Assembly: GCA_021794095.1 (NCBI GenBank)
Contig: JAJYRN010000005.1
Location: forward strand, 124,001 to 188,000
DNA from: Acidobacteriota bacterium
GTDB lineage: Bacteria; Acidobacteriota; Holophagae; Holophagales; Holophagaceae
Direction of reading: 5' to 3'
DNA: 64,000 nt
The stretch's first letter is position 1; every line of letters begins with the position of its first letter. The position numbers and the translations under genes were made by a program. This document shows positions 1,158-35,750 of this stretch, in pieces. Below the pieces are notes generated by a model. The model was not told the DNA's origin, ran no database searches, and saw nothing but the letters and a program-made list of their open reading frames with translations.

Positions 1158-2648
1158 CTAGGCGATCTCGATCCGTCGGTCCAGGAGGCTCCCCAGCAGC
1201 GCGGACCGCTCCCGGAAGGCCTCGATTTCGGGTTCCACGTCCCCAGAGTTCTCGAGCCTTATGGTCAGGCTTTCCTCGTCCAGTTCAACCGAAATGGAGT
1301 GGACAGCCTGGCGCCGCCGCCGATCAAGGGCATCCGCAGCCCGGAGGATGGCCGCCAGCTTCCGGACCCGCTCGCGGTGCCAGGGGGCGAGGGCACGGAA
1401 GGCTTCGTGCCGGGTGGGATCCGGTGCCTTGCCCCGGTGGTAGCGGACCACCTGGGCGAGCAGTTCCACTTCTTCGGGCCAGAAGCCGGGCAGGCTGGCA
1501 TTCCGGACCAGGTATTCACCGTGCTTGTGGTGGCCCCGCTCGGAGATGGAATGGCCGATGTCATGCAGGCGGGCCGCGAATTCCAGCCATTGGCGTTCGG
1601 TATCTCCCAGCTCGAAGGTGGGCTGGAGGGCCCGGAAGATCTGGTCGCTGAAGGCCATGACTTGGCGGCTGTGGCCCGGATCCGGGTCCAGCCGGTCGGC
1701 GAACTGGGCGATGGAGGCCCGCCGGCGATCCGCCAGGGGCGGGATGGCTGCGCCGCCATGCTTGAGGGCCTCCCAGACCATGCCTTCCCGCAGGCCCACG
1801 GGCAGATGTCGGAAGCGTGGCGCCTCCAGCCACTCGAGCAGGGAGAGGGCCCAGATGGCGCCCACATGCAGGGCTTCGGCCCGCCGGGGATCCACTCCCA
1901 GGCGCGCGACGCGGCCCTGGGCATCGGTCCGCCACAACTTCAAGGCGAAGGCGCGGAGCTGGGCCCGGTCGCAGGCAAAGGTGCCGCCGGAACCCCGGGC
2001 GAGGTCCTCAAGGGTGCCAGAGGTACCGAGCATCAGCGTGGATGCGGGAAGCTCCTTCGGCAGGTGCTTCCGGGTTTTTCTAAGGATCTTCCGGATGGTT
2101 TTCCGCAGACGATTGAGATCCTGGGCGGTGGGCGGATCGGCGGTGGCCACCACGTCCGCCAGGCGCTGAAGGCCCCAGGGGATGGAGACACTCGCCTCCA
2201 CTCGGCCGCTGTGGACCCAGGTCAGTTCGGTGCTGCCGCCACCGATGTCCACGAGAGTCACCGGTTCCTGGGGGAAGGGGATGGCATGGGAGACCGCCTG
2301 GTGGATGAGGCGGGCCTCCTCCTCCCCGGAGATCACCTGGATGGGGATTCCCAGATTTTCCGCTTCGAGGAGGAAAGCCTGGGCGTTCCGGGCATTGCGC
2401 AGGGCAGCGGTGCCGCAGGCCATGACCGTATCGCAGGCGAAGCCCCGGATGACTTTCGCCATCTGGGCCAGGGCGTCGAGGCCGGCCCGGAAGGCTTCGG
2501 GGCTGATCTCGCCGGATTTCGCTTCGCCGCGTGCCAGGCGGACCATGACCTTTTCCCGGGCCAGCACCCGCTGTCCACCCAGGGGGTCAGCCTCCACCAC
2601 CACCATGTGGATGGAATTGGAACCGACGTCCACCGCCGCGATGCGCAT
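1158..2648 (-). CDS. ppx: Ppx/GppA phosphatase with C-terminal HD domain
   Basis: About 496 aa. The N-terminus MRIAAVDVGSNSIHMVVVEA is the phosphate-1 loop of the sugar kinase/Hsp70-like Ppx/GppA fold, and VDIGGGSTELTW is the second nucleotide-binding loop. The C-terminal half holds an HD-type metal site (AARLHDIGHSIS followed by HHKHGEYLV). Family members hydrolyse inorganic polyphosphate and/or pppGpp in the cytoplasm, linking phosphate storage to the stringent response. The start at 2648 places the conserved AVDVGSNS at the very N-terminus; an in-frame ATG eight codons upstream (2672) is possible, and neither has a strong Shine-Dalgarno. The SCP2-like gene diverges upstream; the LeuA-family gene follows 13 bp downstream. 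Whether polyP or pppGpp is preferred cannot be decided from sequence. Confidence 0.9.
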   Translation of the reverse strand: MRIAAVDVGSNSIHMVVVEADPLGGQRVLAREKVMVRLARGEAKSGEISPEAFRAGLDALAQMAKVIRGFACDTVMACGTAALRNARNAQAFLLEAENLGIPIQVISGEEEARLIHQAVSHAIPFPQEPVTLVDIGGGSTELTWVHSGRVEASVSIPWGLQRLADVVATADPPTAQDLNRLRKTIRKILRKTRKHLPKELPASTLMLGTSGTLEDLARGSGGTFACDRAQLRAFALKLWRTDAQGRVARLGVDPRRAEALHVGAIWALSLLEWLEAPRFRHLPVGLREGMVWEALKHGGAAIPPLADRRRASIAQFADRLDPDPGHSRQVMAFSDQIFRALQPTFELGDTERQWLEFAARLHDIGHSISERGHHKHGEYLVRNASLPGFWPEEVELLAQVVRYHRGKAPDPTRHEAFRALAPWHRERVRKLAAILRAADALDRRRRQAVHSISVELDEESLTIRLENSGDVEPEIEAFRERSALLGSLLDRRIEIA

Positions 2649-34586: not shown

Positions 34587-34662
34587 GGCCCTGTAGCTCA
34601 GCGGTCAGAGCTGGCGGCTCATAACCGCTTGGTCGTGGGTTCGAACCCCACCGGGGCCACCA
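34587..34662 (+). tRNA. ileX: tRNA-Ile2 (CAU anticodon, lysidine type)
   Basis: 76 nt including an encoded CCA. Acceptor stem GGCCCTG/CGGGGCC, anticodon stem-loop GGCGG-CTCATAA-CCGCT and T arm TGGGTTCGAACCCCA. A CAU anticodon can mean Met or, after lysidine modification by TilS, Ile reading AUA. The G1-C72 pair rules out an initiator. The acceptor and the GGCGxCTCATAAxCGCTTGGTCG run closely resemble E. coli tRNA-Ile2 rather than the elongator Met tRNA, and a separate elongator-type CAU tRNA exists at 44175. A TACACT -10 box lies 7 bp before the 5' end. Confidence 0.8.
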
Positions 34663-34915
34663 TTCGCCAGGATTGGCGAATAGGACGGAATCGCCAAAGG
34701 CGATGGCCGCCCGCAGGGCGCCAGCACAGGACGTGCTGGCGTCACCATTCGCCAGGATTGGCGAATAGGACGGAATCGCCAAAGGCGATGGCCGCCCGCA
34801 GGGCGCCAGCACAGGACGTGCTGGCGTCACCATTCGCCAGGATTGGCGAATAGGACGGAATCGCCGCAGGCGATGGCCGTCTATATGGCAAGGGCACAGG
34901 GGGTGCTGGTGTCCT
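34661..34915 (+). repeat. Three 85-bp tandem repeats of four hairpins each, abutting the tRNA
   Basis: Units at 34661-34745, 34746-34830 and 34831-34915, period exactly 85 bp. The first two are identical; the third is diverged in its second half. Each full unit contains four dyads in a row: ATTCGCCA-GGAT-TGGCGAAT, ATCGCC-AAA-GGCGAT, CGCCC-GCA-GGGCG and GCCAGCAC-AGGAC-GTGCTGGC. Each unit is preceded by CACC, copying the tRNA CCA end, so the array looks like duplication from the tRNA 3' end. It spans the gap up to the acyltransferase gene; the frames crossing it are not credible genes. Confidence 0.9.
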
Positions 34916-34967: not shown

Positions 34968-35714
34968 ATGCTGCTTTGGATTGCCCGTACCGTCCGCCTG
35001 ATCGTGGGTTGGGTGGATCTCGCCCTTTTTACACTGTTGTTGCTGGGGCTGGCCCTGCTCCCGGAGTTCCTGACCCGCCGATCGTTCCCTCGTCTTTTCC
35101 ACGCCTGGTGCCGGACCTTCGTTCGAGCCTTGCGGGTGGAACTGCGCCTGTTCCAGCAGCACGAGCGGCCCCTGCCCCGCCAGTACATCCTGGTGTCCAA
35201 CCACCCATCGGCCTTCGAAGACATCGGCATCCCCGCCCTCTTCCCGGTGCGGTCCCTGGCGAAGGAGGAGGTTCGCGACTGGTGGTTCGTCGGTCGCATC
35301 GCCCAGGCCGCTGGCACCCTGTTCGTGAAGCGGGAGTCCCCCGATTCCCGCCAGGCCGCCCAGCAGGCGCTGATTGAGGCCGTCAAGGCAGGCGCCTGCA
35401 TCGCCCTCTACCCCGAAGGGGGCTGCAAGGGCCGGCGAATCGCGCCCCACTTCTTCGGAGGGGCCTTTGTGACCTCCAAGGCCACGGGTGTGCCTCTGCT
35501 TCCCGTCTTCCTGCACTACGAGGCCCAGGAGGCCTTCGAGTGGGCGGATCAGCACCTGCTGGTGAAACTGTGGCAGATCATGACGGCCCCCAATCCTCGG
35601 GCCAACTGCTACGTCTTCGATCCCATTGACCCCGGCCGTTTCGACAGCGCGGACAGCATGAGGGCTTACGTCCACGATCTGTACCTCGACTACCAGAAGC
35701 GGTTCCTTGAATAG
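34968..35714 (+). CDS. PlsC-type 1-acylglycerol-3-phosphate acyltransferase
   Basis: About 248 aa from MLLWIARTVRLIVG, preceded by a GGAG site; an ATG at 34917 immediately after the repeat array would add 17 residues. One N-terminal membrane anchor, then the acyltransferase motifs SNHPSAFEDIGIPAL (NHxxxxD with the catalytic His-Asp pair), GTLFVKRES, ALYPEGGCKGRRI (PEG motif) and VPLLPVFLHY. It transfers an acyl chain to lysophosphatidic acid or a related lysolipid. The last codons and TAG stop lie in a partial copy of the repeat found upstream, so the gene is bracketed by the repeat family. Confidence 0.88.
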   Translation: MLLWIARTVRLIVGWVDLALFTLLLLGLALLPEFLTRRSFPRLFHAWCRTFVRALRVELRLFQQHERPLPRQYILVSNHPSAFEDIGIPALFPVRSLAKEEVRDWWFVGRIAQAAGTLFVKRESPDSRQAAQQALIEAVKAGACIALYPEGGCKGRRIAPHFFGGAFVTSKATGVPLLPVFLHYEAQEAFEWADQHLLVKLWQIMTAPNPRANCYVFDPIDPGRFDSADSMRAYVHDLYLDYQKRFLE

Positions 35715-35742
35715 GAGGGAATCGCCGCAGGCAATGGGCGTC
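35709..35742 (+). repeat. Partial copy of the 85-bp repeat at the acyltransferase 3' end
   Basis: GAATAGGAGGGAATCGCCGC and the following 14 bases match bases of unit 3 (34851-34884) with three mismatches in 34. It shares the GCCGCAGGC variant found only in unit 3. It supplies the stop codon of the acyltransferase gene. Confidence 0.75.
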
Positions 35743-35750
35743 CCGCCCCG

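Follow-up and report, generated by a model that had tools for sequence, protein, structure and literature searches.

A genus-wide tRNA-linked repeat with constant AGGA loops in Holophagaceae, a putative CsrA decoy

The repeat array behind a CAT-anticodon tRNA

The window, a 64,000-nucleotide stretch from the Holophagaceae genome G000, contains a tRNA gene with a CAT anticodon and an encoded CCA end at 34587-34662 on the plus strand (ARAGORN; Rfam RF00005, 68.1 bits), whose isotype is given as Met by ARAGORN. The array is composed of three 85-bp units at 34658-34912, which start at the CCA end of this tRNA with no gap, and the tRNA is the presumed source of its transcript. The earlier note had described three exact 85-bp units abutting the tRNA, and this description is confirmed by sequence identity, by TRF (34658-34879, period 85, 98% matches) and by covariance model scores. 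In the register that includes the tRNA end, copies 2 and 3 are 98% and 82% identical to the reference copy. The covariance model R1, built from the array unit and the units of relatives, gives 103.1 bits for each of the full and mutually identical units 1 (34662-34744) and 2 (34747-34829), and 70.3 bits for unit 3 (34832-34914), all on the plus strand. Unit 3 is decayed in dyads 3 and 4; its third dyad is broken and its last loop reads AGGGG, so that the GGA is gone from this loop.

The full unit consists of stem-loop 1, an AGGA linker, stem-loop 2, dyad 3 and stem-loop 4. In unit 1, hairpin 1 (34662-34681) presents the loop AGGATT at 34669-34674, with an invariant or nearly invariant AGGA on a covarying stem. 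It is followed by the linker AGGACGGA (34682-34689), which harbors the second AGGA site and contributes a CGG/CCG pairing that covaries in four sequences, and by hairpin 2 (34690-34704), the loop of which is variable in the alignment of units. Dyad 3 (34708-34720) shows no covariation and is likely shared with the extended stems 2 and 4 in the fold. Hairpin 4 (34720-34740), GCCAGCAC-AGGAC-GTGCTGGC, carries the third AGGA site at 34728.

No second locus with the unit was found elsewhere in G000 at E<0.01. Just 3' of the stop codon of the acyltransferase gene that comes next in the window, at 35702-35743, lies a possible degenerate remnant of a fourth unit (GAATAGGAGGGAATCGCCGCAGGCAATGGGCGTCC; 11.7 bits, not significant), and arrival of the acyltransferase gene may have separated it from unit 3.

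Apart from the tRNA, the array has no Rfam match at gathering threshold and no credible one at E<=10, and the covariance models of the Csr/Rsm families likewise give no match to it at E<=10. The terminator also proposed in the earlier note lacks support, as the array is not followed by a U-tract; the search for an intrinsic terminator, a stem followed by a U-tract, found none in the array, and the sole site recovered, at 35011, is located inside a gene.

Fold, covariation and loop conservation

The predicted fold of the 253-nt array RNA is far more stable than those of shuffled sequences (z -8.8), as is that of a single-unit RNA (z -5.6). Folds predicted for single units contain stems from dyads 1, 2 and 4, with dyad 3 split between the extended stems 2 and 4, and pairing between units appears in the predicted fold of all three. 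Four dyads per full unit, as counted in the earlier note, are thus present in the DNA, whereas the predicted RNA fold has three stems. The chain of 12 hairpins proposed there is an overcount, because full units are limited to 1 and 2 and a stem of unit 3 is broken.

Covariation was assessed in 32 distinct units. In this set 94% of the stem cells are paired, 76 changes on both sides of a pair occur at 10 pairs, and the covariation score is 0.250, compared with 0.081 for shuffled and at most 0.052 for slid alignments. The earlier note had allowed that the stems might lack compensatory changes; such changes are found in stems 1, 2 and 4. For dyad 3, compensatory changes were looked for in the same 32 units and none was found, and an alternative three-stem structure covaries as well as the four-dyad one. 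The covariation support is for three stems, not four. The stem pairs are dominated by Watson-Crick pairs and G-U pairs are rare, and therefore a constraint on the DNA palindrome would fit the covariation too.

While the stems covary, AGGA stays constant in loop 1, in the linker and mostly in the last loop, which reads ACGA in some units. Because the extraction pattern demanded a linker with GGA and restricted loop 4, the conservation of these two elements is partly built in, whereas loop 1 was left free. The AGGA of loop 1 has an entropy of 0.15 bits, compared with 0.87 bits for its own stem and 0.95 bits for the other bases of loop 1; loop 2 reaches 1.27 bits. Moreover, the 253-nt array RNA holds eight AGGA motifs where 1.2 are expected, a count reached in none of 2000 shuffles, and the 32 units together have 52 predicted hairpin loops with GGA (shuffles: mean 10.6, maximum 18).

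Distribution and edges of the repeat in Holophagaceae

The earlier note had considered that the unit might occur only in the window; it is genus-wide, being present in most of the 47 genomes of the genus. Model matches reach seven further genera of Holophagaceae, and exact matches to the unit core are found in public contigs labelled Holophagaceae or Acidobacteria. Directly 3' of the CAT-anticodon tRNA, the unit mostly faces a gene for a GntR/FCD-type regulator. It also follows tRNA-Leu(tag), upstream of a gene with a trigger factor-like start (a candidate assigned by eye), and tRNA-Leu(cag) at L135. In G030, an AGGA unit is located 3' of tRNA-Ile(gat) in both 16S-23S spacers (L145 and L146, after position 1498); this genome is a single contig, and the spacer units would be very abundant if transcribed. 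In G045 there are two tRNA-Leu(tag) genes at contig ends (C14:91205-91289 and C30:157233-157317), with a unit behind one only, and this pair may reflect contamination.

Copies also occur at a distance from tRNAs, where the palindromic repeat is dispersed over many intergenic places, and some lie on the opposite strand, 53-73 nt and more from tRNA or tmRNA 3' ends. One such AGGA unit is found in G027 (L143, about 1501-1578, minus strand), 53 nt from the 3' end of the tmRNA, and similar opposite-strand placements are seen at tRNA-Gln, Ala, Thr, Ser and Leu genes. The copies fall into two classes, the AGGA class and a plain class with the first hairpin ATCCGACCG..GGAGGAT or ATTCGCCAAAGGCGAAT. In the set of copies compared, all seven sense copies abutting a tRNA are of the AGGA class, while the remaining copies of the set comprise 18 AGGA and 33 plain ones. 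In several species, a plain copy embedded in longer palindromic sequence is located 140-600 nt from a tRNA-Asp/tRNA-Val pair, on the opposite strand (L153-L157, L168, L169).

The repeat has recurrent edges, ACC before it and GTCA at its end, which are retained away from tRNAs. Among the 51 copies without an adjoining tRNA, the preceding letters are CACC in 20 and GACC in 18. The CACC noted earlier before each unit is present, yet it is weak as a copy of the tRNA 3' end, with 5 nt in common, and it is not by itself proof of such copying because it also precedes copies elsewhere; this origin was set aside. In G041 (L234), the unit separates the CCA from an older hairpin, which in G039 adjoins the CCA directly, and therefore units were gained at the CCA point. 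A plasmid or phage origin was rejected, as no similar DNA was present in the plasmid or phage collection. A RAYT-driven REP was likewise rejected, because no Y1 transposase (PF01797) was found in G000; only five of the 47 genomes have one.

Relation to CsrA and competing explanations

G000 has a csrA gene, and fliW lies immediately upstream of it (L209). The CsrA site selected by SELEX is RUACARGGAUGU, with its GGA in a loop, and this loop-presented form is preferred by CsrA (PMC4347634). Hairpin 4 (CACAGGANGUG) resembles this site, and constant AGGA loops on covarying stems suggest the signature of CsrA/RsmA sites. Of the roles proposed in the earlier note, binding of a protein is the one we favor, with the loop conservation pointing to CsrA. 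Judged from sequence, we tentatively regard the array as a repeat-derived, putative CsrA decoy carried on a tRNA transcript, and put this interpretation slightly below an even chance. RNA polymerase would read through the tRNA into the repeats, and tRNA 3' processing would release an RNA of ~250 nt with as many as eight AGGA sites, of which five lie in hairpin loops. By binding there, CsrA dimers would be kept away from their mRNA targets, and increased tRNA transcription would lower CsrA activity.

CsrA is present in 33 of the 47 genomes of the genus. On a two-gene tree a whole clade of eight genomes lacks it, as do G022, G007, G019 and G044; in the CsrA-less genomes G001, G005, G009 and G044, the fliW-csrA pair is gone from between its usual neighbors. 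Complete AGGA units behind the two tRNAs read are absent from the CsrA-less clade, G022 and G007, and somewhat degraded units are retained in the CsrA-less G019 and G044. Six CsrA-bearing genomes (G014, G015, G026, G037, G038 and G043) have no unit behind the tRNAs read. When the comparison is confined to genomes of 80% completeness or more, an AGGA hairpin 1 that pairs occurs in 21 of the 30 with CsrA and in 2 of the 11 without it. A test of dependent evolution between unit and CsrA gives a likelihood ratio of 11.8 (p about 0.003), reached in 0 of 60 simulations; with the CsrA-less clade treated as one tip, 8 of 60 simulations reach it, which is not significant. Most of the association signal comes from one clade, and the loss of significance lowered our confidence in the CsrA interpretation. 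G007 and G022 are 64% and 87% complete, so that their lack of csrA could reflect incompleteness; with csrA set to unknown in both, the test gives p 0.004. The link between the AGGA unit and CsrA is suggestive, not proven. The units retained in G019 and G044 and the six CsrA-bearing genomes with none speak against the decoy, as do the ACGA last loops of some units and the pairing between units in the three-unit fold. In G022, a Cas12b-like gene (L292, 3-1475, minus strand; Pfam C2c1 helical domain, PADLOC Cas12b) occupies the place where a sister genome has fliW-csrA beside uvrA.

The main rival explanation, possible though on balance doubtful, is a mobile or amplified palindromic element of the REP/BIME kind that settles near tRNA 3' ends, its stems and loops serving its own spread through DNA hairpins and recombination between copies and not an RNA function of the host. 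The dispersed intergenic copies, the conserved edges, the insertion visible in G041, the opposite-strand copies near tRNA and tmRNA 3' ends and the preference for Watson-Crick over G-U pairs all fit such an element, and the plain dispersed copies without AGGA count against a CsrA decoy. Against such an element stand a loop 1 AGGA far more constant than its own stem, and an AGGA class that accounts for every sense copy abutting a tRNA in the set compared while other copies are mixed. The scarcity of Y1/RAYT-type transposases and the CsrA association, weak after correction, also argue against it.

AGGA is the core of the Shine-Dalgarno sequence. The loops might bind a partner other than CsrA, such as the 16S rRNA 3' end or another RNA-binding protein, and the persistence of units in two CsrA-less genomes would agree with this; we nevertheless consider it very improbable, given that complete units are absent from the CsrA-less clade, G022 and G007 and that the GGA is presented in the form preferred by CsrA (PMC4347634). 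Constant AGGA loops would be superfluous in a plain hairpin, and it is unlikely that the hairpins at the CCA end are a structural trailer, guiding tRNA 3' processing, protecting upstream RNA or slowing read-through, with no protein partner and AGGA incidental. Stem 1 does start at the CCA, and in relatives that lack the unit the CCA of tRNA-Leu(tag) is often followed at once by a different hairpin, but G001, G004, G010 and G046 have little or no hairpin there, and the U-tract is missing.

The putative CsrA decoy can be compared with known systems. The E. coli tRNA-linked repeats (TLRs) include those behind tyrT and the RrA, RrB and RrF repeats of rRNA operons, which originate in rRNA transcripts and whose loops carry the GGAs that CsrA binds (PMC8144298). 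The likeness to the tyrT repeats drawn in the earlier note, with different sequence and architecture, is apt as an analogy, since one E. coli TLR subfamily binds CsrA (PMC8144298). Both kinds of repeat stand directly behind tRNA or rRNA genes, with one to several units per locus, and RrB is made from a stable-RNA transcript and binds CsrA through GGA in its loops, as is proposed for the Holophagaceae unit. In contrast, the last 18-19 bp of an E. coli TLR exactly repeat the 3' terminus of the RNA upstream of it, whereas the Holophagaceae unit shares CACCA only; no such copy is found at its 3' end (GGCGTCACCA in the unit, GGGGCCACCA in the tRNA). The two also differ in sequence, architecture and phylum, and FliW is present here. 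The Holophagaceae unit is at most analogous to, and not homologous with, the E. coli repeats. A literature search on Geothrix repeats and rtT gave nothing direct, and for tRNA-linked repeats it led to PMC8144298 only.

Like CsrB/CsrC and RsmX/Y/Z, the array carries repeated A(N)GGA motifs, several of which lie in predicted hairpin loops, and its genome has CsrA. Those RNAs are free-standing genes under BarA-UvrY/GacSA control, whereas the unit is appended to tRNAs and is a predicted binder. REP/BIME elements are likewise short dispersed intergenic palindromes in clusters, but the unit differs from them in the absence of a RAYT in G000, in a loop 1 more conserved than its stem and in often standing at the 3' end of a tRNA. 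E. coli 3'ETS-leuZ resembles the proposed decoy in being a regulatory RNA excised from the precursor of a tRNA, but it pairs with other small RNAs, and no repeat or CsrA-type loops are described for it (PMC8144298).

A wider proposal, to which we would give only a modest chance, is that two checks act on CsrA of Holophagaceae, FliW and a decoy RNA released from tRNA transcripts, in one species also from rRNA-operon transcripts, so that CsrA would read how fast stable RNA is made; a dispersed palindromic repeat would have given rise to the decoy, in an origin independent of that of the CsrA-binding repeats of E. coli. Joint action of FliW and small RNAs in any bacterium has been described as undetermined (PMC7652899). 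Should the decoy be real, it would place an RNA of this kind outside Gammaproteobacteria, in a bacterium where FliW is present too, and tRNA-linked repeats would have come to act on CsrA in two independent cases. The coupling of CsrA to stable-RNA transcription would become testable, as would the way in which a dispersed palindromic repeat turns into a regulatory RNA. Should the mechanism prove wrong, the element would still merit description, as its stems covary, it spans the genus, it sits on tRNA 3' ends and it is absent from Rfam.
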